From: Candidatus Zixiibacteriota bacterium
GTDB lineage: Bacteria; Zixibacteria; MSB-5A5; GN15; JAAZOE01
Assembly (NCBI GenBank): GCA_030668485.1
Contig: DAOUTW010000023.1
Location: forward strand, 1-63,059
Length of the DNA stretch: 63,059 bases
Direction of reading: 5' to 3'
Shown one piece after another: positions 21,575 to 53,161 of this stretch. The notes beneath the pieces were generated by a model that saw only the letters and a list, made by a program, of their open reading frames with translations, was not told the origin of the DNA and did no database searches. The stretch's first letter is position 1, and each line of letters opens with the position of its first letter. The position numbers and the translations under genes are program-made.

Positions 21575-21598
21575 AATGGAAATGAGTTGGTAAGTACC

Positions 21599-24500
21599 AT
21601 GAGAAGAAGATCGAATATCAGATTGGTCCCGGGTATCGCGACTCTGTTGGTCTGCGGCCTCCTGTTGGTCACCCCGGTGCGGGCGGCCGACGTAATAACC
21701 AATGGTACCTTTGACACCAATCTGAATGACTGGAATCATTCCGATAATGCCAACGGATCGGTTTCACTCGACAATACCAACTTTGGCGCCGGCGCCGGAT
21801 CAATTCAAAACCTGAGTAATACCGGTCGTAATACTATCTATACGTGCGCCGATTCCCAATATATATCCACTTCGATCACCGCCGGTGACAGTGTTTTTCT
21901 CAGTTTATGGTGGTACAAATACAGTGGAGTTGCGGATGCTGGCCGCCTCGATGTTTCCATAGAAATTACCAAACCGGATCTGACATTGGCCACGATATGG
22001 TCGGAAACTTCTATCCCGGTGGCGAATAATTCATTGACAAGCACCGTGACCCATTTCGACGTCACTTCGTTTTTTGATCAATCGGGCAACTATTCCATCA
22101 AAATCCTCGGCGATATAAAAAATGGTCGCAACGCGTCGGCATACGGACAATTCAACCTGGACGATATAATTCTGGATGTTGTTTCCACTGGCGGTAATGC
22201 TGCCCCCCAGGTTACACCGGGTGCGACGGCGGTGAGTGTATCGCCGGTTAACCGTTTCGGAGCGAATACGACAGTCATCTCGACCGATTTCACCGATACC
22301 GATCAGCCGGGTGTGGGAGCTTTTACGGCCACCTTCAAAATTCGTGAGCCAAACGATGTCACCGAACTGACCCTGGTCGACAACCAACCCAACGGCGGTG
22401 GCGGGTTGACTATTACCGACAATGGCGGTGGATCATACACCGCCAGTTATACCTATAATCCCGATGACGCTCAGACAACAGGTCTCTATGATCTCTACTT
22501 CGAAGTTAGCGATGGCACCGACAATGCCATCGATGATTACACTAACAACCTCGATGAACTGGAAATTAATGAAGTTCTCGTCAATAATGCTCCGACCGTT
22601 GTGTCAGGAGCAACGGCGGTGAGTGTATCGCCGGTTAACCGTTTTGGTGCGAATACGACAGTCATCTCGACCGATTTCACCGATACCGATCAGCCGGGTG
22701 TGGGAGCCTTCACGGCCACTTTCAAAATCCGTGAGCCGAATGATGTTACCGAGCTAACTCTGGTCGACAACCAGCCGAGCGGCAGCGGCGGGTTGACCAT
22801 AACCGACAACGGCGGCGGGTCATACACCGCGAGTTATACCTACAATCCCGATGATGCTCAAACTCTCGGCTTATATGATCTATATTTCGAAGTCAGCGAT
22901 GGTACTGACAATGCGATAGACGATTATACCAGCAATCTCGATGAGTTGGAAATCAATGAGGTTATCGCCAACAACGCCCCGACCGTTGTGGTGGGAGCAA
23001 CCGCGACTAGCGTTTCGCCGGTGAATCGTTTCGGAGCCAATACAACTGTAATCTCAACAGACTTCACCGATACCGATCAGCCGGGTGTGGGAGCCTTCAC
23101 GGCCACTTTCAAAATCCGTGAGCCGAACAACTCCACCGAATTGACATTGGTGAGCAACCAGCCGAACGGTAGCGGCGGGTTGACCATAACCGACAATGGC
23201 GGCGGATCATATACCGCGAGTTATACCTACAATCCCGATGACGCTCAGACAACAGGTCTCTATGACCTCTATTTCGAAGTCAGCGACGGTACCGACAATG
23301 CGATAGATGATTATACCAACAACCTTGACGAGTTGGAAATTAATGAGGTTATCGCCAACAACGCTCCGACTGTTGTGTCAGGAGCGACGGCGGTAAGTGT
23401 TTCACCGGTTAACCGATTCGGAGCCAATACAACTGTTATCTCGACCGATTTCACCGATGCCGATCAGCCGGGATCAGGAGGATTTACGGTAACGTTTAAG
23501 ATTCGTGAGCCGAATGATGTCACCGAGCTAACTCTGGTCGACAACCAACCCAACGGCGGTGGCGGGTTGACTATTACCGACAATGGCGGTGGGTCGTATA
23601 CTGCCAGTTATACCTATAATCCTGATGATGCTCAAACTCTCGGCTTATATGATCTATATTTCGAAGTCAGCGATGGTACCGATAATGCCATCGATGATTA
23701 CACTAACAACCTCGACGAGTTGGAAATTAATGAGATTATCGCCAACAACGCCCCGACAGTTATTTCCGGGGCAACCCAGGTGAGTGCTTCTCCCGTGAAT
23801 CGCTTCGGGGCTAATGCCACCGTTATTTCCGCTGATTTTACCGATTCCGATCAGCCTAGTGTGGGTGCCCTTACGGTAACATTCAAAATTCGCGAGCCAA
23901 ACAACAGCTCTGAACTGATCCAGGTCAACAATCAGCACCATGGTAGCGGCGGGTTAAACATAACCGACAATGGCGGCGGGTCATATACTGCAAGTTATGC
24001 GTATAACCCTGATGACGCTCAGACAACAGGTCTCTATGACCTCTATTTCGAAGTCAGCGACGGCACCGACAATGCCATTGACGATTATACCAACAATCTC
24101 GACGAACTTGAAATCATCGAGATTCTTGCCAACAATGCTCCTCAGGTGACCCCGGGAGCGACCCAGGTAAGTGTCTCGCCTGTCAACCGTCTGGGTGTGA
24201 ATACAACTGTTATCTCGACCGACTTCACCGATTCCGATCAACCGGGCGTAGGAGCCTTCAATGTCATCATCAAGATACGCGAACCAAACAACAGTACCGA
24301 ACTGACGCTGGTTAACAACCAACCCAATGGCAGCAGCGGGTTGGTCATCACCGATAACGGTGGCGGATCATATACCGCCAGTTATACCTATAATCCCGAT
24401 GACGCTCAGACGACCGGTCTCTATGACCTGTACTTCGAAGTAAGCGATGGTACCGACAATGCCATCGATGATTACACCAACAATCTTGACGAACTTGAAA

Positions 24501-27500
24501 TCAATGAGGTTATCGTCAATAATCCACCCGTTGTGGCTGCAGGAGCAACGATTGTCAGCAAAACACCGGTAAACCGCATCGGATCTGACAATACCGTCAT
24601 TTCGGCATCTTTCAATGACGCCGACCTTCCCGGAATAGGCGCTTTCTCGGCCACCTTCAAAATACGCGAGCCGAACAATGTCACCGAGTTGATTTTGGTA
24701 AACAATCAGCCTAACGGTTCCGGTGGTCTGACCATTACAGATCTGGGAAGCGGAACCTACCGGGCGGAATATACCTATAACCCCGATGATGCCCAGACTA
24801 TCGGTGCCTATGATCTCTATTTTGAGGTCAGCGATGGCTCCGACAACACCATTGACGATTATGCCAACAATATTGACGAACTCAGCCTGCTGAGCCAGGA
24901 GATTAATTTCCCGCCGGCAATGGTGGCCGGGACGACATCGGTTGCCCCTTCTTCCATGGACCGCGTCGGGGCCGGCACGGTAACTTTCTCAGCCAATTTC
25001 AGTGATGCCAATCAACCCGGTATAGGCGCCTTTTATGTCACATTCCAAATCCGCTATCCATATAACGAGGGATTCCTGACAATAGCGGACAGTTTGCAGA
25101 ACGGACAGGGAGGAATGACCGTCTCCGATCTCGGCAGCGGTAATTATTCAGCCGGTTTTGCCTGGAATCCTCCCGACAACATTACACTTGGATACTATGA
25201 CCTGCAAGGCCAGATTTCGGACGGCATCGATATCGGAGTGGACGATTTTGCCGATAATCCCGATGAGCTTTTGATATCGAACGGAGGAGAAAATATCCCG
25301 CCGGTAGTACCCTCGGATAATACCTTTGCATCTCCGGCAGGAGTGGAACGGATAGGTACCAATCCGACGACAATTTCAGCCACCTTCACCGACGGCGATG
25401 CCGCCAGTGTGTCGGCCTTCAATGTTTCCTTCAAACTTCGCGAACCGGACAATTTGGATGAAATAGTGCTGGCCGATAACCTTTCTCATGGTGCCGGCGG
25501 CGTGACCATCACTGACGGTGGCGGAGGAATCTATACCGCTTCGATTTCGTGGGACCCCTCCGACGTCCAGACGCTTGGCTTTTATGATCTCTATTTTCAT
25601 GTTACCGATGGAATCGACATTTCCTACGATGTTTATACTTTCAACATCGACGAACTTCAAGTTCTCAATGCCATCTCCAACAATCCGCCGACACTTGTCG
25701 CAGATACCACCCGTGTTATACCCAATAGCATTAACCGGATCGGTTCGGAATATACCATGATTACGACGGTCTTTACGGATGTTGACGTTCCGGGCACCGG
25801 TGCTTTCGTGGTGACAATAAAAGTTCGCGATCAATCATCGACCGAGTATACTCTGGTCAATGCTGCTCATCACGGCGAACAGGATTTACGCATCAGACAC
25901 CTCCTGGGTAATGATTACGAAGCTTCCGTCCTGTGGGACCCGCCAGTCAGCCAGCCGACCGGGACATATGATCTGTACTTTTATGTCGAAGATAATGAAA
26001 CCGCCTCGGTAACCGATGATTATACCGTTAATGCCGATGAGTTGACCATTACTTCGGAGGCCATCCTCGGCGACGGTTTTCTCCTTCGGCGCACCAATGA
26101 TGCCGATGGCTGCGGCGGCCCCTCTTCAGCCTGCCATAATATAGCCGACCACCAGAGTCAGGATTGTCGTGTATGCCATACACCGCATTCTTCGAACAAT
26201 ATTTACCTGGTGCGCGACAGCATTCAGACGCCATCGTCGGGCAAAATGGAAGTTATTTTCAAGACACTTGGAATAGGCGATCCCTTCAATGATCCCGACC
26301 CAATCATCGGTGATCCCACCTCCGGGGTTATGGCCGATGACTCAGATCATGTTCATACCGGTGTATGTGAAGTATGCCACAGGACAACGACCCATCATAA
26401 CAATGATGATACCCATACGATACAGGGTCATTACAATGCCGAAATCTGCACCGGTTGCCATCCTCATGCCGACGGATTCGCCAATACCGGCGGCGGCGAA
26501 TCGAGCGGCGGGTCGGGCTGTACCTGCCACAATTCGATTTTTAGTCCTATGAATACATCTACGACCTCATACCACCACCAGATGAACGGCAGTGGGGCCG
26601 ATTATACGATTTCATCGAAGACATGTCTGATGTGCCATGTCGATCATGATATATTCCGTCCTGACCTTAACCCCGGATTCGCCACCCGGGCCAAAAATCT
26701 GCGGGCCGATATAACCTCTTCGGTGGTTCAGGGGGATAATACCGTTCTGCTGGATTCAGACTATCAGTCGTCCGGAACCGGTGGTATCTGTTTGTCGTGC
26801 CACACATCAACACAATCCAAGGGATATACACAGCCTGATGCTACAACCCAGACTCCGGCCATGTCAAAGACAGATTATGATGCCGCCACCTCCGCTCATA
26901 ACTATAATGCCCCCTCGACTTATTCGACCGACGGATCAACCTTCAACGCCAACTGCGTCAAATGCCATAATGATAATATGACCAAGTCATACCAGAATTC
27001 GACCGACAAATTCGGCACCCATAATTCCGATTACCGGAGAATTGAGGCTCCCCTGGGTGTCGCTTCACCGACCGATCCCCTGGAAGAAAAATTCTGCTAC
27101 CAGTGCCATTCCAGCACCTCCAATCCCAATGCCGGATCGAATCAGGATTACTATGGTGTCAAAAGTATGACCAACGCCAACTCTCTCAAGATTGAACAGG
27201 CATTTGGATACACCTATACTCATCCGGTGACAACCTCAGGAAGGCACAAACCAATTGAATCGGCCTCTGATCTGGCCGACGGCAACCGTCACGCCGAATG
27301 CGAAGACTGTCATAGTCCGCACGCCGCCCAGCAGGGCACCCATAATGGATCGTCGAACCTTGTCTCCAACGCGCTCAAGGGCACCTGGGGAGTGGAGCCA
27401 ACATCATGGGCCAACCCACCGACGACACCGACCGACAACGGCAATGTTTACGATACTCCGGCATCCTATACCAAAGTCGAACCGGCCCAGAAGGAATACC

Positions 27501-28156
27501 AGATTTGTTTGAAGTGTCATTCCAATTATACAACCCTGCCAACCGGCGCTCGTAATCTGGGCGAGGAAATAAATCCCAATTATCCTTCTCAGCACGGTAT
27601 CGTCCAAGCCGGTGACAATCCTTTCTGCAATACCAATACCATGAATGAACCGTGGGCCAGTTCGAAGATAAACTATTGCTCCGATTGTCACCGCTCATCA
27701 GTCAGCACCGACCCCGAGGGGCCTCACGGCTCGAATATGGAACATCTTTTAGTGGCTACCGTAACATCCGACGGCACGGTGGGTACGCCCTTGTGCTATG
27801 TCTGTCATCTTGAACCCGTGTACTGGAGTGACAGGAACGCAGCCGATGTCAGCCGCTATCCGGATCATCCGTCGGCTCAGGGTGCCCACCAACTGGGCAA
27901 CGGATGCTTCAGTTGCCATATGTGGGACTATGCCAGCACGGGTGGCCTGGGTTTGCAGACGACCGATGATATTTCAGCGGGCACAATCAACGTCCACGGC
28001 CAGAATAGAAAATGGGTATTCAACGAGCAGGACGGCTCGGCTGGCTCCGGCGATTCGGCAGACGCCTTTGTGAATGGGTATATAGCCGACATGGATTATG
28101 CCAATCGAGCGTGTTGGACCGAAACCTGCAAGGTTCACTCAAACAAAGCCTATTAA
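21599..28156 (+). CDS. Giant surface protein: lectin-like domain, ten Ig-like repeats and a 12-haem cytochrome domain
   Basis: 2185 residues from the ATG at 21599 (an in-frame TTG at 21587 is also possible). Signal peptide (ATLLVCGLLLVTPVRAAD), then a ~170-residue jelly-roll-like domain (VITNGTFDTNLNDWNH .. FNLDDIILDV, a carbohydrate-binding-module pattern), then ten tandem ~129-residue Ig-like repeats (about residues 200-1490), then a haem domain of ~700 residues with twelve CXXCH sites, one CX6CH (CGGPSSACH) and one CXCH (CTCH). The haem domain is a longer relative of the 18257 cytochrome. There is no FCB tail. The layout is that of a long stalk carrying a cytochrome head, perhaps binding a mineral, polysaccharide or neighbouring cell. 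It is the largest gene of the operon and directly precedes resB and resC. Confidence 0.88.
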   Translation: MRRRSNIRLVPGIATLLVCGLLLVTPVRAADVITNGTFDTNLNDWNHSDNANGSVSLDNTNFGAGAGSIQNLSNTGRNTIYTCADSQYISTSITAGDSVFLSLWWYKYSGVADAGRLDVSIEITKPDLTLATIWSETSIPVANNSLTSTVTHFDVTSFFDQSGNYSIKILGDIKNGRNASAYGQFNLDDIILDVVSTGGNAAPQVTPGATAVSVSPVNRFGANTTVISTDFTDTDQPGVGAFTATFKIREPNDVTELTLVDNQPNGGGGLTITDNGGGSYTASYTYNPDDAQTTGLYDLYFEVSDGTDNAIDDYTNNLDELEINEVLVNNAPTVVSGATAVSVSPVNRFGANTTVISTDFTDTDQPGVGAFTATFKIREPNDVTELTLVDNQPSGSGGLTITDNGGGSYTASYTYNPDDAQTLGLYDLYFEVSDGTDNAIDDYTSNLDELEINEVIANNAPTVVVGATATSVSPVNRFGANTTVISTDFTDTDQPGVGAFTATFKIREPNNSTELTLVSNQPNGSGGLTITDNGGGSYTASYTYNPDDAQTTGLYDLYFEVSDGTDNAIDDYTNNLDELEINEVIANNAPTVVSGATAVSVSPVNRFGANTTVISTDFTDADQPGSGGFTVTFKIREPNDVTELTLVDNQPNGGGGLTITDNGGGSYTASYTYNPDDAQTLGLYDLYFEVSDGTDNAIDDYTNNLDELEINEIIANNAPTVISGATQVSASPVNRFGANATVISADFTDSDQPSVGALTVTFKIREPNNSSELIQVNNQHHGSGGLNITDNGGGSYTASYAYNPDDAQTTGLYDLYFEVSDGTDNAIDDYTNNLDELEIIEILANNAPQVTPGATQVSVSPVNRLGVNTTVISTDFTDSDQPGVGAFNVIIKIREPNNSTELTLVNNQPNGSSGLVITDNGGGSYTASYTYNPDDAQTTGLYDLYFEVSDGTDNAIDDYTNNLDELEINEVIVNNPPVVAAGATIVSKTPVNRIGSDNTVISASFNDADLPGIGAFSATFKIREPNNVTELILVNNQPNGSGGLTITDLGSGTYRAEYTYNPDDAQTIGAYDLYFEVSDGSDNTIDDYANNIDELSLLSQEINFPPAMVAGTTSVAPSSMDRVGAGTVTFSANFSDANQPGIGAFYVTFQIRYPYNEGFLTIADSLQNGQGGMTVSDLGSGNYSAGFAWNPPDNITLGYYDLQGQISDGIDIGVDDFADNPDELLISNGGENIPPVVPSDNTFASPAGVERIGTNPTTISATFTDGDAASVSAFNVSFKLREPDNLDEIVLADNLSHGAGGVTITDGGGGIYTASISWDPSDVQTLGFYDLYFHVTDGIDISYDVYTFNIDELQVLNAISNNPPTLVADTTRVIPNSINRIGSEYTMITTVFTDVDVPGTGAFVVTIKVRDQSSTEYTLVNAAHHGEQDLRIRHLLGNDYEASVLWDPPVSQPTGTYDLYFYVEDNETASVTDDYTVNADELTITSEAILGDGFLLRRTNDADGCGGPSSACHNIADHQSQDCRVCHTPHSSNNIYLVRDSIQTPSSGKMEVIFKTLGIGDPFNDPDPIIGDPTSGVMADDSDHVHTGVCEVCHRTTTHHNNDDTHTIQGHYNAEICTGCHPHADGFANTGGGESSGGSGCTCHNSIFSPMNTSTTSYHHQMNGSGADYTISSKTCLMCHVDHDIFRPDLNPGFATRAKNLRADITSSVVQGDNTVLLDSDYQSSGTGGICLSCHTSTQSKGYTQPDATTQTPAMSKTDYDAATSAHNYNAPSTYSTDGSTFNANCVKCHNDNMTKSYQNSTDKFGTHNSDYRRIEAPLGVASPTDPLEEKFCYQCHSSTSNPNAGSNQDYYGVKSMTNANSLKIEQAFGYTYTHPVTTSGRHKPIESASDLADGNRHAECEDCHSPHAAQQGTHNGSSNLVSNALKGTWGVEPTSWANPPTTPTDNGNVYDTPASYTKVEPAQKEYQICLKCHSNYTTLPTGARNLGEEINPNYPSQHGIVQAGDNPFCNTNTMNEPWASSKINYCSDCHRSSVSTDPEGPHGSNMEHLLVATVTSDGTVGTPLCYVCHLEPVYWSDRNAADVSRYPDHPSAQGAHQLGNGCFSCHMWDYASTGGLGLQTTDDISAGTINVHGQNRKWVFNEQDGSAGSGDSADAFVNGYIADMDYANRACWTETCKVHSNKAY
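22197..26066 (+). repeat. Ten in-frame tandem repeats of about 387 bp
   Basis: Copies begin near 22197, 22584, 22971, 23358, 23745, 24132, 24519, 24909, 25290 and 25680. Each encodes one Ig/cadherin-like module with the markers NNAPTV, SPVNRFGANTTVIS, FTDTDQPGVGAF, FKIREPN, NGGGSYTASYTYNPDDAQ and LYDLYFEVSDGTDNAIDDY. Copies 1-6 are nearly identical over long stretches of DNA, while copies 7-10 are progressively diverged. This indicates recent duplication or gene conversion at the N-terminal end. Confidence 0.9.
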
Positions 28157-44432: not shown

Positions 44433-47191
44433 TTTCTTTAGCGGACATATCCCGGCTACATTCCAAAGACAGCATTGACCGACATATTCAAGAATGTTAC
44501 GATGGCGATACTGCTCGCTATATATCCGATATAAATTCAACCGTAAACAAACTACTGCAAACCGATCTCAAGCAAGCTCAACAATTTATAGATAAACTGG
44601 CGCCATGTTTTAAACATCTTTCTCTTTTGCATCGCCCACGATTGCTGGCTATCGAAGCTCGTTATGCCCACTGGGCCGGTCAAAGTAAGACCGCTTTGCG
44701 CAAATATAAAACGGCGATTGAGCGACTTCAAAAAGTGAGAAACTTCGATGCAGTCGCTCGTGCTCGCCAGGGTTTGATGGATGTTTATATGTATTTGGGT
44801 GATTATCAGGCAGCCTTGGAGGTCGGACGGCTCGCCCTCGCCTATTTCCGCCGCATGGGGAATAAATACAATGCTGCCCGGGTAATGACCAATATCGGGA
44901 ACATCTATCATCGCCTGGACCGCAATAAATTATCCCTGAGGTACTATGACCGCGCGCGCGAGTTCTTCGAATTAAAAGGCGGCGTTCCTCTGGCAATTCT
45001 GGATTTTAACCGGGCAAATATATTTACCAATCTCAATCAACTGGACAAAGCCGAGGAGTTGTATAGATCGGTTTCGGATCAGTTCCGAAAAAATAATATG
45101 GATCTGGCCGTCGGCAAAGCCGAATACTCCCTGGCATACCTCTATTTTCTGGGTGACAAATATAGTCTGGCGTTAAAGGCGTTCGATCAGGTGATGGATA
45201 CTTTTCGAGAGTCGGGTGATACGAAAGCGGTGGCCATAACCCAGCTTGATCTGGCCGAGATCAATACTCATCTCAATCAATTCGGTTCAGCCGTCATGAT
45301 GGGTGAACGGGCGTCGGCAACCTGCGGTAAGCTGGGTCTGCGATATGAGGCGGCCAAGGCGGCCTACTTCGTGGCTGAGGCATATCGTCAGTTGGGAGAT
45401 AATCAACAGGCCACTCGCTGTCTAAAGCGCGCCGAACGGTTATTTATTCAGGAAGATAATAAACTCTGGCAGGGCATGGTCCATCTGACTCGATCCCGGC
45501 TCAAGACGGCGGCCAGGCGTTACTCCGAAGCACAAACGACGGCTGGCGCCGCTAATCGCTTGTTTAAGCAAAGCGGGGACAAGAGACGAGGCATCGACGC
45601 CGAGATTACTCTCATGGAAAACTATCTTGAGGGAGGCCGGCCCGAAGAAGTTATTCGGCTTGGAAAAAATCTGTTAAAAAATCGTCTCGTCAGTTATCAG
45701 AAGCATCTAGTCCTATATCATATCGGGCTTGCCTGTCTCCATCAATCCGACACCGTAACCGCCTTGGATTATCTGAAACGCGCCATTGATGTCGTTGAAA
45801 AAATGTTGGAAAACATATATCCTGATGAGATCCGCTTTTTCTTCGCTCTCGATAAATACCCCACATATTTGGCGGCGGTCAATTGTCTGTTGAAAATGAA
45901 TCGAGTGGAGGAATCTTTCCTTCAGCATTCTCGTGCTTTGGCGGTACTCAATCAGCGGCAAATATCAAGTACAGCATTAAGCCGGGAAGTTCCCGCTCAT
46001 CTTCTCGAAACCCGATCCGGCCTGCGGGCCTCGTTGAAAAAACTCAGCCGCGTTCCGGATAGTCCACAAAGACAGTTGACCGGCACCAGGACGATGTACA
46101 GCGAGGAACACCGCTTGTGGGAAACTGAAAGGAAAATCCGCTCATACTCGTATCCCTCGCAGAAAACCCATCAATTACCAACACCAAGCCCTCAAGCGTA
46201 TTCGGAACTTATTGCCCCCCACGAAGTTTTAATTAATTTCTTTTCTACCGGTGAGACCATCGGAGCTTTTTGTGCCTATCAGGGATCTACTCGGTTTATT
46301 CCCTGCCCCGTCCGACAGTCGGATCTGGAAGCGGCAATTCGGGAATTACATTTCCTTATGGAAATGACAGTACACGCTCCCGGCGGAAGTAGCCAAAATA
46401 GAGAAGTGATTGGTCATTATTTGCAGAAACTGTATGAGTGGTTGATAGGCCCCATAGATATTCCGAAAAAGACACGCACTCTGGTGCTGATGCTGGATGG
46501 GCTTTATGCTCAACTACCATTTCCGGCCCTGGTGAATTCACAGGGCAGATGGCTGAAAGACCGTTACGATATTCGAATTATTGTCAATCCTGATGATTTA
46601 CGAAACAAAGGCAATTCCACTCGCTTTTCCAGCCGCGGCCGGAATGCTGTTTTTGCCCCCGCCAATGCCGGTTTGCCTCTGGTTGAAGTCGAAGGATTGA
46701 GAATTAAAGAATCATTTTCAAGAGCGCATTTATACCTGGGCAAAAAGGCCGATATCCAGAATCTCCGGCGAGAATTGAAGCAGGCGGGCGGTTTTGTACA
46801 TATCGCAACTCATGCCTCCCGGTCGTCGGAAAATCCGCTATTTTCCAAAATTATGATGAGCGACGGACCATTTTTCCCGTTCGACCTCTTCGGGACCGGG
46901 ATTAAGGCCCGTTTGGTTAGTCTTTCTGGTTGTCAAACTGCCGCTCCGGGTATATATTACGGTAACTCGTTTAGTTTGGCCAAGGCCTTTTACCAGGGAG
47001 GAGCCAACCATGTACTTGCCTCGCTCTGGCCAATTTCCGACAAGGTCAGTATGATATTCATGACGGAATTTTATAAAGGTCTGAAAGTACATGGGGATAT
47101 CCCGACTGCCTATGGTATTGCAATGAATAAGACCTGTGAAATAAACGATAATCCGGCCTTTTGGGCTCCATTTATAATGCTGGGAATATAA
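44429..47191 (+). CDS. TPR-CHAT caspase-like protease
   Basis: 920 residues; ATG overlaps the upstream stop. Residues ~30-490 are about ten TPR units (ARVMTNIGNIYHRLDRNKLS, LAYLYFLGDKYSLALKAFDQ and so on). Residues ~600-920 form a CHAT domain with the catalytic dyad His795 (FVHIATHASR) and Cys835 (VSLSGCQTAAPG), followed by GGANHVLASLWPISD and a C-terminal FWAPFIMLGI, all family hallmarks. CHAT proteases are separase/caspase relatives. TPR-CHAT proteins include Csx29, the protease of type III-E CRISPR effectors. Here there is no CRISPR partner. The operon partners are a sigma factor, an anti-sigma-like protein and a subtilase. No signal peptide is seen. Confidence 0.88.
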   Translation: MISLADISRLHSKDSIDRHIQECYDGDTARYISDINSTVNKLLQTDLKQAQQFIDKLAPCFKHLSLLHRPRLLAIEARYAHWAGQSKTALRKYKTAIERLQKVRNFDAVARARQGLMDVYMYLGDYQAALEVGRLALAYFRRMGNKYNAARVMTNIGNIYHRLDRNKLSLRYYDRAREFFELKGGVPLAILDFNRANIFTNLNQLDKAEELYRSVSDQFRKNNMDLAVGKAEYSLAYLYFLGDKYSLALKAFDQVMDTFRESGDTKAVAITQLDLAEINTHLNQFGSAVMMGERASATCGKLGLRYEAAKAAYFVAEAYRQLGDNQQATRCLKRAERLFIQEDNKLWQGMVHLTRSRLKTAARRYSEAQTTAGAANRLFKQSGDKRRGIDAEITLMENYLEGGRPEEVIRLGKNLLKNRLVSYQKHLVLYHIGLACLHQSDTVTALDYLKRAIDVVEKMLENIYPDEIRFFFALDKYPTYLAAVNCLLKMNRVEESFLQHSRALAVLNQRQISSTALSREVPAHLLETRSGLRASLKKLSRVPDSPQRQLTGTRTMYSEEHRLWETERKIRSYSYPSQKTHQLPTPSPQAYSELIAPHEVLINFFSTGETIGAFCAYQGSTRFIPCPVRQSDLEAAIRELHFLMEMTVHAPGGSSQNREVIGHYLQKLYEWLIGPIDIPKKTRTLVLMLDGLYAQLPFPALVNSQGRWLKDRYDIRIIVNPDDLRNKGNSTRFSSRGRNAVFAPANAGLPLVEVEGLRIKESFSRAHLYLGKKADIQNLRRELKQAGGFVHIATHASRSSENPLFSKIMMSDGPFFPFDLFGTGIKARLVSLSGCQTAAPGIYYGNSFSLAKAFYQGGANHVLASLWPISDKVSMIFMTEFYKGLKVHGDIPTAYGIAMNKTCEINDNPAFWAPFIMLGI

Positions 47192-47214
47192 CTTCTTACC
47201 GGAGATATTGTGTT

Positions 47215-48639
47215 ATGCGGACGAAAAAACATTTGATCATTGCTCTGATGGTCTTTGCTATTCTTGCCGTTTCTCAACCGGTAATGGTCCAGGGAGATCC
47301 TATCCCGGGGCAGGCGGTCATGAAAATGACCTCGAATGGGAAACCGGAAGACGTCTTGCAGGGAAGCAGCGCCAAAGTAGATGACAGCATACCCGGATGC
47401 CAGACATATCTGATCGAAATGGGTATCGGTGACGATTGGGATGCGGTCCTGGCTGAACTGGAATCAGACACCCAGGTGATATTCGTAGAACCGAACTATT
47501 CGGTGGAATTACCTGAAAGCTTCCAGATGAGTATCTCTTTCCCGGATGATTATGCTCCTCCACTGCTGGATGGTGTAGAACCTAGCAATTTCTTTGAGCA
47601 ATCATCAATATATTCGGTTGGTGTCGATCAGGCTCAGCAAATCGTCACCGGGACCGGTATCACCGTCGCCATTATTGACAACGGCGTTGATTTTTCCCAC
47701 CCCCTGCTCTCTCCCAGGCTTTTGCCCACCGGATATGATTTTGTCGATAACGATAGCGACCCCGGATATGAGACGGGAGCGGTCACCAGTCACGGTACTT
47801 TCGTTTCGGGCCTGATAGCACTTATTGCCCCGGATTGTAAAATCCTCCCCCTCCGAGCTTTTGATGGCGATGGCTACGGCACTACCTATGCCATCGCTGA
47901 CGCCATATATAATGCCGTCGATCAGGGAGTCGATGTCATAAATATGAGTTTCGGCACCGTTGAATCTAGTCGCATAATGATCCAGGCCACCAATCAAGCT
48001 ATCTTAAACGGGGTTTCATTGGTCGCGGCCAGCGGCAACAATTCACTGGAGGTGCCTACCTACCCCGCCGCATTACCCGGCGTAATTGCTGTATCCGGTA
48101 TCGATGCCAACGACTATCTCGCGACTTTCTCAAACTATGGTGAATATATCGATGTCTGTGCCCCGGCGGTGAACCTATACAGCACCCTGGCAGGTGAAGA
48201 TGAATGGGGAACATGGAGCGGCACTTCTTTTGCTGCGCCATTTGTTGCCGCCGCCTGCGCCCTGGTCCGACAAATCAGTCCTGACTACTCGACTTTCATC
48301 ATGCAGGAACATATCCGTCAAACCGCCTCAACCGACTTCCAGTGGGGAACCCTGGTTCCGCCCGATCCCTCGTATGGCTATGGGCGTATCAATATCTTTA
48401 ACGCCGTCAACCTGTCGGCCGAAGCCTTCACTATCGAATTTGGGGATTTGAACGGCAACGGAGCGGTTAATGCCGGGGATGTTGTCTATCTCGTACAATA
48501 TGTATATTCTGGGGGGCCGCCACCAACAGCGCCGGGAAATCCCGATATGAACTGCGACGGTATCGTAAATGAGTTTGATATCGAATATTTTGTAAATCGT
48601 ATTTACAACGACGGTCCGCGATGCGGTCGCTGTAATTAA
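47215..48639 (+). CDS. Secreted subtilisin-like (S8) protease with C-terminal dockerin
   Basis: 474 residues from the ATG at 47215 (CGGAG ten bases upstream); the longer frame would run into the CHAT gene. A signal peptide (LIIALMVFAILAVSQPVMV) is followed by a ~75-residue I9-like propeptide. The S8 catalytic triad is Asp155 (VAIIDNGVDFSHP), His193 (SHGTFVSGLIA) and Ser338 (GTSFAAPFVAAA). The C-terminal ~65 residues are a type I dockerin with two loops (GDLNGNGAVNAGDVVYLVQY, DMNCDGIVNEFDIEYFVNRI) ending in PRCGRCN. It is probably released or displayed outside the cell. It follows the CHAT gene by 23 bases, so an intracellular and an extracellular protease share one operon. Confidence 0.88.
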   Translation: MRTKKHLIIALMVFAILAVSQPVMVQGDPIPGQAVMKMTSNGKPEDVLQGSSAKVDDSIPGCQTYLIEMGIGDDWDAVLAELESDTQVIFVEPNYSVELPESFQMSISFPDDYAPPLLDGVEPSNFFEQSSIYSVGVDQAQQIVTGTGITVAIIDNGVDFSHPLLSPRLLPTGYDFVDNDSDPGYETGAVTSHGTFVSGLIALIAPDCKILPLRAFDGDGYGTTYAIADAIYNAVDQGVDVINMSFGTVESSRIMIQATNQAILNGVSLVAASGNNSLEVPTYPAALPGVIAVSGIDANDYLATFSNYGEYIDVCAPAVNLYSTLAGEDEWGTWSGTSFAAPFVAAACALVRQISPDYSTFIMQEHIRQTASTDFQWGTLVPPDPSYGYGRINIFNAVNLSAEAFTIEFGDLNGNGAVNAGDVVYLVQYVYSGGPPPTAPGNPDMNCDGIVNEFDIEYFVNRIYNDGPRCGRCN

Positions 48640-49262: not shown

Positions 49263-51875
49263 ATGAGAAAGCTAACTTTTACACTTCTTCTGGCAGCACT
49301 TATCGTTTCCAGCGCTGCCTTTGCAGACAATGTTATCAAAGTAGATCGTGAGCTAGGATCCTCATTTGTGGGATATGCTCCCGACAGATGTATCGTTATC
49401 TTCAAAGAGGGAGCCTCACCCAATTCCGGTCAGAAGGCCCTCTCAGCAATACACGGCAAATACCAGGTCGGACATTTCGATCAGCAATTCCCGATGGCGG
49501 AAAAAGCTGGTTTCACCCATCCGACCGACCGAGTCCTGACAAATTATTATAAAGCTCGATTCCCCGAAGGCCAACTCGACGAAGTGATGGCAGCCTATCG
49601 TGAACTGCCGTTTGTGGAGAAAGTCGAACCGGTCGGAATGTATCTGGTCAGCGCCACTCCGAATGATGCTTATTATGATGACCCTCCCCCGGAATTCCCA
49701 TACGATCAGTGGCATTATTGGGATTCCTACGGGATAGAAGCCGATATGGCTTGGGATCTGGAAACAGGTGATCCCGATGTTGTATGTGCCGTTATCGACG
49801 GCGGCGTCCGGTACTATCACTATGATCTGGGCGGAACCAATCCGCCGGGACCGGCTGACAACAGCACCAACGGTAATATCTGGGTCAATAACGGCGAAAT
49901 CCCGGGTAATGGCCTCGACGACGACAATAATGGATATGTCGACGATGTTATCGGTTGGGATTTTGTCGACGAAGCTCCCCAGTGTGTCGATACCGATTGT
50001 GGCATAGCCGATAATGATCCGTCCGATCATGGCGGTCATGGCACTCATGTCGCCGGCACTATTGCGGCCATTACAAACAATGATCCCACCTTTGGTGTCG
50101 CAGGCGTTGCCGGTGGATGGAATGACGGCACGACTGAATTTACCTCCAACGGTGTTAAAGTTATGTGTCTGCGGGCCGGATTCACCAGCCGCAGAGGCGG
50201 CGTAATGTATATGGACATGGTCTCCGAGGCGCTTTATTATATTGCCACCATGGTAGACAAGGGTGTCAATGTCACCGCTGTCAACTGTTCATGGGGATCG
50301 TCCTATCTTATTGAGGCTGCCATCGACGCCGTGCTTGCGCGTGACGTTATGGTGATCGTTGCCTGTGGCAACGCCAATAACACGACCGCCGATTACCTCG
50401 GCGCTCGCGAGGATTGCCTCGATGTTGGCGCTACCGCCCAGAACGGCGATCCGGCCAGTTTCTCGACCTATGGCACCTGGGTTGACATTGCCGCACCCGG
50501 CGTTGCGATTCTCAGCACCTATCATAATTCCGATGATCCCGATGGCGATTACATTGCCACAATGGATGGTACCTCGATGTCCTGTCCGCATGTGGTTGGT
50601 GTTGCCGGATTGTTGGAATCGTATGATCCCAGTCTGACCAGTCAGGATAAATGGGATCTGATAATGGAGAATTCCAAGCCGTATAATCCGACGAAGTATG
50701 TCGGTGTCGGTATTGTCGATGTACGGGCTTGTCTCGATGCTATTGGCGGCGGATGCGATGTTACCGCCGACTTCTCCGGTGCTCCGACCTCCGGTTGTGC
50801 ACCGCTGACAGTCGGATTCACCGATCTGTCTGCCGGCCCGGTTCTTTCCTGGGATTGGGACTTCGGCGATGGTGTCGGTACTTCGACAGCTTCAGACCCG
50901 TCCTATCAGTACAATTCGCCCGGTACTTATACTGTCACTCTGACAGCGACCTCGGCGGCCTGTTCTGATGGCGAGACGAAAACCGGTTATATTACGGTTC
51001 AGACCGTTCCGGTGGCTGACTTCTCAGGTTCACCGACCACCGGTTATGCGCCGCTGACAGTAGACTTTGCCGATCTGTCAACCGGTAGCCCTGACACATG
51101 GAGTTGGAATTTCGGCGATGGCGTAGGTACCTCGACGGCTCAGAACCCGACATACATTTACAACGATGCCGGGACTTACACCGTCACTCTGACCGCGTCA
51201 AATGCTTGCGGTTCCGATGGCGAGACCAAAACCGGTTATATCATAGTCGATCCCGCTGGTGAAAACACTATGCATGTCAGTGCCATGACTGTTATTCGTG
51301 TTGGCAACAACCAGAAGAACGGCCGCGCTATGGTGACTGTACTTGACCAGAACAATGATCCTGTGGGCGGAGCTGTTGTATACGGTTACTTCAATGCGCC
51401 GAATACAAATACCAAATCGGGTACCACCCTTTCAACCGGAGTTGCAACCATTTCCTCTGATCGTACCAAGGTATATCCGAGTGACTGGTGCTTCACGGTC
51501 ACCGATGTGGTTCTTGCCGGCTATACATATGATGCCGGAGCCAACAATGTGACTGAGGCCTGCGAAAGCGGACCGGTTTACAGCGTTGCCAGCCGCTCAG
51601 GCGCGGCTCTGCCGGAAGGATTCACCCTCGATAACCGCCCGAATCCGTTCAACCCGGCCACGACCATTGCCTTCAACCTTCCTGCCTCATCCAACGTCCG
51701 GCTCGAAGTCTATAATGTCGTCGGACAGCGGGTAGTCACTCTGGTCGATGAATATCTCACTGCCGGTGAGTATTCATTTGATTGGGACGGCAGTAAAGTG
51801 GCAAGCGGTATTTACCTCTATCGTCTGACCACCGATGAGTTCAGCGAAACGAAGCAGATGGTTCTTATGAAGTAG
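49263..51875 (+). CDS. Secreted subtilisin-like (S8) protease with two PKD domains and FCB sorting tail
   Basis: 870 residues; ATG 49263 follows CGGAGGAAAG. A signal peptide (TFTLLLAALIVSSAAFA) and a ~110-residue propeptide are followed by the S8 domain with Asp179 (CAVIDGGVRYYHYD), His259 (HGGHGTHVAGTIAA) and Ser438 (GTSMSCPHVVGVAG). Two PKD domains span ~497-580 and ~580-665 (each with PLTVxFxDLS and WDFGDG or WNFGDG and GTYTVTLTA), then an Ig-like domain (~670-780) and the tail RPNPFNPATTIAFNL .. SGIYLYRLT .. QMVLMK. It is an exported, surface-targeted protease, larger than and distinct from the dockerin subtilase upstream, and is separated from it by three terminators. Confidence 0.9.
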   Translation: MRKLTFTLLLAALIVSSAAFADNVIKVDRELGSSFVGYAPDRCIVIFKEGASPNSGQKALSAIHGKYQVGHFDQQFPMAEKAGFTHPTDRVLTNYYKARFPEGQLDEVMAAYRELPFVEKVEPVGMYLVSATPNDAYYDDPPPEFPYDQWHYWDSYGIEADMAWDLETGDPDVVCAVIDGGVRYYHYDLGGTNPPGPADNSTNGNIWVNNGEIPGNGLDDDNNGYVDDVIGWDFVDEAPQCVDTDCGIADNDPSDHGGHGTHVAGTIAAITNNDPTFGVAGVAGGWNDGTTEFTSNGVKVMCLRAGFTSRRGGVMYMDMVSEALYYIATMVDKGVNVTAVNCSWGSSYLIEAAIDAVLARDVMVIVACGNANNTTADYLGAREDCLDVGATAQNGDPASFSTYGTWVDIAAPGVAILSTYHNSDDPDGDYIATMDGTSMSCPHVVGVAGLLESYDPSLTSQDKWDLIMENSKPYNPTKYVGVGIVDVRACLDAIGGGCDVTADFSGAPTSGCAPLTVGFTDLSAGPVLSWDWDFGDGVGTSTASDPSYQYNSPGTYTVTLTATSAACSDGETKTGYITVQTVPVADFSGSPTTGYAPLTVDFADLSTGSPDTWSWNFGDGVGTSTAQNPTYIYNDAGTYTVTLTASNACGSDGETKTGYIIVDPAGENTMHVSAMTVIRVGNNQKNGRAMVTVLDQNNDPVGGAVVYGYFNAPNTNTKSGTTLSTGVATISSDRTKVYPSDWCFTVTDVVLAGYTYDAGANNVTEACESGPVYSVASRSGAALPEGFTLDNRPNPFNPATTIAFNLPASSNVRLEVYNVVGQRVVTLVDEYLTAGEYSFDWDGSKVASGIYLYRLTTDEFSETKQMVLMK

Positions 51876-52051: not shown

Positions 52052-53161
52052 CTATTTTCGACTGTATATGTTATAACTGACGACGGCGGTTCCCTGATCC
52101 GGATTGTCGGTGGTGATTTGAATAGTGCCCCGGTAATAATTTCCATCGCCCAGGGTTTCCTCAATCAAACTGGCCTCGACTTCATATTTCTGGCCCTCCT
52201 CCACTGTATTTATAACCAGATCAAGGCGCCCGTCCGGGTCTTCGACACTTAGAATGTGAAGCTCCCTTTCCTCAGACAGGTTGACAACCTGAAATTTCTG
52301 GAATTTGGAGGTTTTCTCGCCTTTGATCGGGAATCGATCAAAGCGCAGCGTTTCAGGAATAAGTTTGATATCCCCGATCACGGAGCCGGAAAGACGGATA
52401 TTGGATTTCGGCTTGCTTTCCAGATTGGAATGAGCGGTGATCGTTCCAGTTATCCTACCCGGAACTAAGCCGGGCAGCAAGGTAATTTCAATCTCAATTT
52501 TGGCCGCCCCATTATCACCCGGAATCGTCTCCAACTGCTTAGCGGTGATAAATTCCGACGTTGATTCCAATTTCGTAATCTGGGTATTGGCCGCATCCTT
52601 GACCGTTACAAACACATTTTTGCTGAACGGTTCATCCAGTTTGACTTCTCCGAAATTCAGACCGCGCAATGCGAAATCGAACTCAACTTCGATTAACGCC
52701 TTAACCTTGACTTTTGTCTTGGGATTTTCGGGATCATTGGAGGTAATCGTGACCGTTTTAGTTTGCTTACCCTTTTTGCCGGCCGTGCTAAATGTTACCT
52801 GTACTTCACCTTCCCCGCCCGGGGGAATATCGGCTTTGGTCAAAACCGCAGCCGTGCAGCCTCACGACCCTTTCGCTTTTATCAATTTCAGGGGCGCGGT
52901 TCCGATATTCTTGATGATAAACTTATGTGACGGCTTGTCTCCCTGAGACACCGTACCGAAATCGTGTGTGGTTTCCACAAATGATATTATAGGGACGGCG
53001 GTTGGAGGTTGCCCCTCCTCGCCGGTATTTTGAACCTTTAGGGTGTCGCCTTCACCGGCATCTGTGGCTTGGTCTGAGGCATTTCCCGGAGACCATCCGG
53101 CCAGGACGACAGCAAATACTAATAACGCTACAAAGATGACAAATTTCTTATGCATAACCAT
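52052..53161 (-). CDS. Exported DUF1573-domain protein, candidate selenoprotein (in-frame TGA)
   Basis: 369 codons read through TGA at 52864-52862. Upstream of the TGA are a signal peptide (KFVIFVALLVFAVVLAG) and the start of a DUF1573 domain (HDFGTVSQGDKPSHKFIIKN, APLKLIKAKGS). Downstream, in the same frame, the domain continues GCTAAVLTKADIPPGGEGEV and then two further beta-sandwich domains. In DUF1573 proteins this point reads SCGCT, so the TGA stands exactly at the first, conserved Cys and would give S-Sec-GCT. No frameshift or other lesion is visible. A hairpin follows the TGA at the distance used by bacterial SECIS elements. The alternative is a nonsense-mutated gene or a sequencing error. 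DUF1573 function is unknown; a redox-active selenol beside Cys would fit an exported thiol-redox role. A hairpin terminator lies at 51974-52007. Confidence 0.75.
52831..52854 (-). promoter_or_regulatory. Candidate bacterial SECIS hairpin
   Basis: On the minus strand, seven bases after the TGA, CGGCT (52854-52850) pairs with AGCCG (52835-52831). Inside, GGT/ACC closes a TTTG loop, with a GC/AA internal loop between the stems. The apical part starts about 18 bases after the TGA, within the range reported for bacterial SECIS elements. The upper stem is short, so support is moderate. Confidence 0.45.

Follow-up and report, generated by a model that had tools for sequence, protein, structure and literature searches.

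The window analysed here, a 63,059-nucleotide stretch of a Candidatus Zixiibacteriota genome, carries on its minus strand a gene that very probably (roughly 95%) encodes a selenoprotein of the DUF1573 (OS_HP2) family, with selenocysteine (Sec, U) predicted at residue 100. The analysis established the frame, the conservation of its internal TGA, the Sec machinery of the host genome, the family, a downstream hairpin seen by comparison of related genes and an association of the subfamily with arsenic operons. On this genomic evidence, Sec would actually be incorporated at the TGA.

Reading frame and position of the TGA

Translation of positions 52,052–53,161 (minus strand) gave one 369-residue frame with a single internal TGA and a TAG terminator. 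The ATG at 53,155, located 7 nt behind a GGAG (53,166–53,163), was preferred as the start codon over the ATG at 53,161, and the likely coding sequence is thus 52,052–53,155, or 367 aa including Sec (369 from ATG 53,161). The ordinary ORF list splits this gene into two ORFs of 99 and 263 aa. The in-frame TGA lies at 52,862–52,864 (minus strand) and is residue 100 when counted from ATG 53,161, in the context KAKGS-U-GCTAAVLTKADIPPGGEGEV. It takes the place of the first Cys in the CGC motif of DUF1573, turning S-C-G-C-T into S-U-G-C-T, and its reading as Sec is based on the translated frame, the paralogues and the relatives. The DUF1573 domain (PF07610) was matched at residues 59–154 with 100.3 bits against a gathering cut-off of 26.1. 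A previous sequence-only reading had proposed that two minus-strand open frames are one gene, that the TGA sits where DUF1573 proteins have the SCGCT cysteine, and that the frame is kept and the domain continues past the TGA. All three proposals hold: there is a single 369-residue frame, translation and homologue comparison place the TGA at that cysteine, and the PF07610 match runs across residue 100.

Conservation of the TGA and alternation with cysteine

Four of the five DUF1573 genes of the host genome have TGA at the same column (U-G-C motif). At least 28 interrupted DUF1573 matches occur among 98 relatives; the 28 best matches listed, from 22 genomes, each have exactly one TGA, which was located at the U-G-C motif in every case, including one in G094. 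A whole-protein search of 132 genomes of the class yielded 16 matches of the three-domain subfamily to which the window protein belongs (15 covering most of the protein and one partial at a contig end), and all 16 have the TGA. Neither TAA, TAG nor a frame lesion was found at the Sec column among the 28 listed interrupted matches or the 16 subfamily matches. A single-protein search of the genome contigs gave no match; the alignment-based search did find homologues.

These results bear on two trivial explanations. The first, that the TGA is a nonsense mutation and the two pieces predicted by standard ORF calling are remnants of a pseudogene, is refuted by the conservation of the TGA across orthologues: the same column carries it in dozens of divergent genomes with approximately 30–45% protein identity and intact frames, and the interruption is never TAA or TAG. 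The second is a sequencing or assembly error, which might be suspected in a genome of 139 contigs; independent assemblies share the TGA, as do three further paralogues within the host genome, so that a read error at this codon is extremely improbable.

A motif scan of named genomes identified 54 Sec and 6 Cys DUF1573 proteins, a ratio that is not an unbiased frequency because one of the Cys calls (L122) is spurious, its motif lying outside the domain, and because the search patterns favoured the three-domain subfamily. The scan takes in ten Zixiibacteriota-type loci; the nearest named records are mostly from Candidatus Zixiibacteriota, and several of these records are evidently contigs already present among the relatives. 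Sec forms were found in Zixiibacteriota, Myxococcota, Desulfobacterota-type and CSSED10-310 genomes, and Cys forms in Ratteibacteria and Bacteroidota. The alternation of Cys and Sec at the TGA column, which the sequence-only reading had suggested checking by alignment, is confirmed among DUF1573 homologues. In L155, L162 and L164 the second Cys of U-G-C is replaced (UGL, UGS and UGV) and U is retained, an indication that the reactive residue of the motif is Sec. One homologue (L131) has Thr at the Sec column.

Selenocysteine machinery and genetic code of the host genome

The host genome is nearly complete (99.95% completeness, 1.34% contamination), and selA, selB, selC and selD, which had been named earlier as genes to be looked for in it, were all found. 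On contig C40, selA (506 bits, cut-off 268) adjoins selB (328 bits, cut-off 242), and the gene of tRNA-Sec (selC), with a tca anticodon (UCA), lies approximately 12 kb from this pair. The selD gene (387 bits) is located on C39 and is itself a selenoprotein gene (L047, G000:C39:9758-10681), with an in-frame TGA at the catalytic motif, SCAGUASK. The Cys-to-Sec interpretation of the window gene is supported by the presence of the four genes, the TGA kept in independent genomes and the sole use of TGA at the site in the interrupted matches of relatives.

The identity of the inserted residue rests on genomic evidence, and UGA could in principle be read as another amino acid, through a code change or suppression, or passed by plain readthrough. 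Such decoding is very improbable given complete Sec machinery with a UCA tRNA and a TGA that aligns with Cys, as it also does in selD. TGA serves as a normal terminator elsewhere in the host genome as well, for example at the end of the L004 Sec gene, and a global code change is therefore unlikely. Among the relatives (Candidatus Zixiibacteriota), tRNA-Sec is present in 77 of 98 genomes and in 20 of the 22 with listed TGA-interrupted DUF1573 matches, a co-occurrence that is weak evidence and discriminates little since the tRNA is so common in these relatives anyway. As for the two genomes without a tRNA-Sec match, selB was found in G003, and neither gene was found in G002.

A downstream hairpin as candidate bacterial SECIS

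A candidate bacterial SECIS hairpin, identified by folding, cross-gene comparison and covariation, spans 52,831–52,854 (minus strand). The hairpin described previously, starting seven bases past the TGA, is present as the minimum-energy fold, with 5 bp, an internal loop and 3 bp. In the conserved stem, 52,848–52,844 are paired with 52,835–52,831 around an 8-nt loop; the alternative minimum-energy 5′ arm is 52,854–52,850, with the same 3′ arm. On its own, the window hairpin does not exceed dinucleotide shuffles in stability (z = +0.7). Averaged across 32 Sec genes, the fold z-score comes to just −0.34; z-scores of single sequences were uninformative.

Comparison between genes was more telling. 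For the segment 9–45 nt from the codon start, the folding energy is −9.8 kcal/mol in Sec genes (n = 34) vs. −6.0 kcal/mol in Cys genes (n = 27), the two sets having almost the same GC content (Mann–Whitney p = 4.7e-5), and control segments before and after the hairpin region showed no Sec–Cys difference (p = 0.34 and 0.29); the compared sequences are related, which makes these p-values optimistic. Strong folding was also observed in 44 Sec genes outside the phylum (p = 1.6e-6), at a GC content of 0.65 vs. 0.56. Within the subfamily, the stretch 16–33 nt from the UGA (counted from its U) forms a 5-bp stem around an 8-nt loop, with 88% pairing. None of 500 shuffles reached the covariation of this stem, and pairing in slid versions did not exceed 51%, although the stem had been chosen by hand from the same sequences before these tests, a choice that favours it. 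RNAalifold returned a trivial structure for the 46-column alignment and did not pick the proposed stem. Because the stem was picked by eye and not chosen by RNAalifold, the hairpin is graded as a probable SECIS and not as a proven one. An Rfam scan of the window found no RNA family.

Domains and predicted structure

The AlphaFold model of the window protein is a chain of β-sandwich domains with a mean pLDDT of 85. The DUF1573 domain, an ASH/HYDIN-like Ig fold with the SUGCT motif, is encoded at 52,700–52,987 (minus strand), and two further β-sandwich (Ig-like) regions follow at 52,064–52,681 (minus strand), as judged from the model and from Foldseek matches to tandem Ig/ASH repeats. In the model, U100 is placed on a tight turn of the first domain, between strands 93–98 and 102–106. 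The hydrophobic N-terminus, encoded at 53,072–53,155 (minus strand; boundary approximate) and modelled as a helix at residues 4–21, is a predicted signal peptide or membrane anchor. Orthologues have N-termini of signal, lipoprotein-like or anchor types, and the window protein is predicted from its N-terminus to be exported.

Foldseek searches with the model retrieved generic Ig/ASH-repeat proteins, none with a query TM-score above 0.27, and no enzyme was found among these matches. A profile search of the PDB gave a single marginal match to an uncharacterised protein, 2qsv (E value, 0.008).

Relationship to the known DUF1573 selenoprotein family

The sequence-only reading did not know DUF1573 as an established selenoprotein family, a point that has to be corrected. 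OS_HP2/pfam07610, with the motif UGC, was presented as a predicted selenoprotein family in 2008 (PMC2398784), and DUF1573 appears among the selenoprotein families in passages of papers from 2022, for prokaryotes (PMC9312934), and 2026 (PMC13188914), as well as in the NCBIfam model NF041425 (OS_HP2). The 2026 passage attributes the family to a 2007 paper on an Olavius symbiont; according to the passages on its origin, it was first reported from the deltaproteobacterial symbiont of Olavius algarvensis and from marine metagenomes, with the motif UGC/UxC. Since DUF1573 (OS_HP2) proteins have already been published as predicted selenoproteins, the window gene is a new member and does not define a new family. 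The literature retrieved for selenocysteine together with the phylum name "Zixibacteria" (that name only) mentions the phylum just in passing.

The window protein and the OS_HP2 family have in common the Pfam domain, the CGC cysteine that is replaced by Sec, the existence of Cys homologues and Sec machinery in the genome. It differs from the family as described in belonging to a three-domain Zixiibacteriota subfamily, for which only Sec members were found in its class, and in the linkage of this subfamily to ars operons, which the literature passages on the family do not mention. Against NF041425 it scored 95.6 bits, under the curated cut-off of 100, and is therefore not filed under that model; six other Sec-DUF1573 proteins tested scored 49–98 bits, all likewise under the cut-off. 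An entire exported and Sec-dependent subfamily of an uncultured phylum is thus split by standard gene calling, and its proteins score slightly under the cut-off of the NCBI model available for these selenoproteins.

Cys-DUF1573 proteins of Bacteroidota, Ratteibacteria and Zixiibacteriota have the same domain, with a C-G-C-T motif, and are likewise exported. They differ from the Sec proteins in having Cys for Sec, a weaker RNA structure downstream and no ars genes beside them at the 20 loci compared.

Gene neighbourhoods and arsenic operons

The three-domain Sec-DUF1573 gene lies among arsenic genes at 6 of 16 loci, from five taxonomic families (C116 of the host genome, G027, G084, G093, G102 and G126). 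With similar flanks, ars genes were found near none of 20 Cys-DUF1573 loci (Fisher p = 0.004) and near none of 16 short Sec-DUF1573 loci (p = 0.009), the loci in both comparisons being phylogenetically non-independent. The paralogue on contig C116 has ArsC and ACR3 as neighbours. Neighbours named by NCBIfam at the ars-linked loci include an ArsE-type thioredoxin, ArsF, ArsG, ArsR and ACR3, accompanied by SaoE/SO_0444-like permeases and by an ArsC-type reductase whose NCBIfam score is under the equivalog cut-off. Four more loci of Desulfobacterota type have ACR3 within 3 kb of the Sec gene, and at L144 the order is DsbD_TM protein, ACR3, Sec gene, rhodanese, MauE/DoxX protein and ArsR regulator. 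The tree of ars linkage is weak and has at least three label changes, compatible with a single as well as with multiple origins. In several Desulfobacterales (L141, L142, L147, L148 and L154), a gene for a Rex-like redox-sensing repressor stands just before the Sec-DUF1573 gene, an assignment confirmed by Pfam in L142 only.

Six subfamily members are thus encoded inside ArsEFG or ArsC–ACR3 operons, and the window copy stands outside: it has no ars neighbours and is flanked instead by a convergent subtilase, a Trypco2 protein and a DUF4238 protein. A DUF1573 selenoprotein is not known to us from any ArsEFG or ACR3 operon described so far. As far as the literature passages naming DUF1573 go, they contain no link to arsenic, and the linkage of the subfamily to ars operons is, within that coverage, new. 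No function is given for DUF1573 selenoproteins in the passages on the family, and the operon linkage provides a first clue to one that is testable.

Proposed function of the Sec-Gly-Cys site

In the proposed mechanism, SelB and tRNA-Sec would decode the internal TGA, aided by the hairpin just downstream, and yield U-G-C where homologues have C-G-C. The protein would consist of three tandem Ig-like domains, with Sec-Gly-Cys on a tight turn of the first. The selenol would most likely be the reactive group of a periplasmic protein of thiol/selenol redox or metalloid handling, with the second Cys as its usual resolving partner. The frequent encoding of the subfamily with a CcdA/DsbD-like ArsG, a thioredoxin-like ArsF and the arsenite exporter ACR3 suggests electron transfer to the selenol; electrons would cross the membrane for the detoxification of arsenicals or for general oxidative detoxification. 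We accordingly infer that the protein is exported and acts in selenol redox chemistry or metalloid handling, with a CcdA/thioredoxin relay as its presumed electron supply.

A redox role of the selenol in proteins of the window type is moderately probable. More tentative, and rather doubtful at present, is an arsenic relay of Zixiibacteriota and Desulfobacterota, in which a CcdA/ArsG–thioredoxin/ArsF chain would end at the selenol of the three-domain Sec-DUF1573 protein and arsenicals would be detoxified outside the cytoplasm. Probably no more than part of the subfamily has a specific arsenic role, and any such role of the lone window copy would be hypothetical. Passages of PMC13188914 describe Sec in arsenic or organometal biochemistry, in arsenite methyltransferase, arsenate reductase and the SAO system. 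The window protein resembles these in that respect and differs in fold, its Sec being on an Ig-like (ASH/HYDIN) domain. If the relay were real, it would mean a function for DUF1573 selenoproteins and a selenoprotein scaffold of Ig-like instead of thioredoxin-like type.

The main alternative accepts the selenoprotein and holds that Sec-Gly-Cys is chiefly a ligand site for a metal or metalloid rather than a redox centre. It would suit the association with ars operons, in which ACR3 and SaoE/SO_0444-like permeases are encoded, and metal ligation by Sec is proposed for some other selenoproteins in passages of PMC13188914. The partners, however, include CcdA/DsbD-like and thioredoxin-like proteins, and Sec has persisted after loss of the second Cys, which one would expect less of a two-ligand site. 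We consider a ligand site unlikely and prefer the redox role.

Other features of the window

TGA-interrupted frames elsewhere in the window were scanned and judged by eye, and no other convincing Sec site was found. The subtilase convergent with the Sec gene (49,263–51,875, plus strand) has PKD domains and a C-terminal Por_Secre_tail (type IX secretion) domain. A 2189-aa predicted protein (21,587–28,156, plus strand) contains about six tandem repeats of 387 bp (129 aa) at 22,229–24,519, with 79% match, and many CxxCH haem-binding motifs in its C-terminal part, which resembles a multihaem cytochrome. A subtilisin-like ORF at 47,161–48,639 (plus strand) has a C-terminus resembling a dockerin type I module (DLNGNGAVNAGDVVYLVQY...), a type of tail that was also recognized by eye in ORFs of contig C116.
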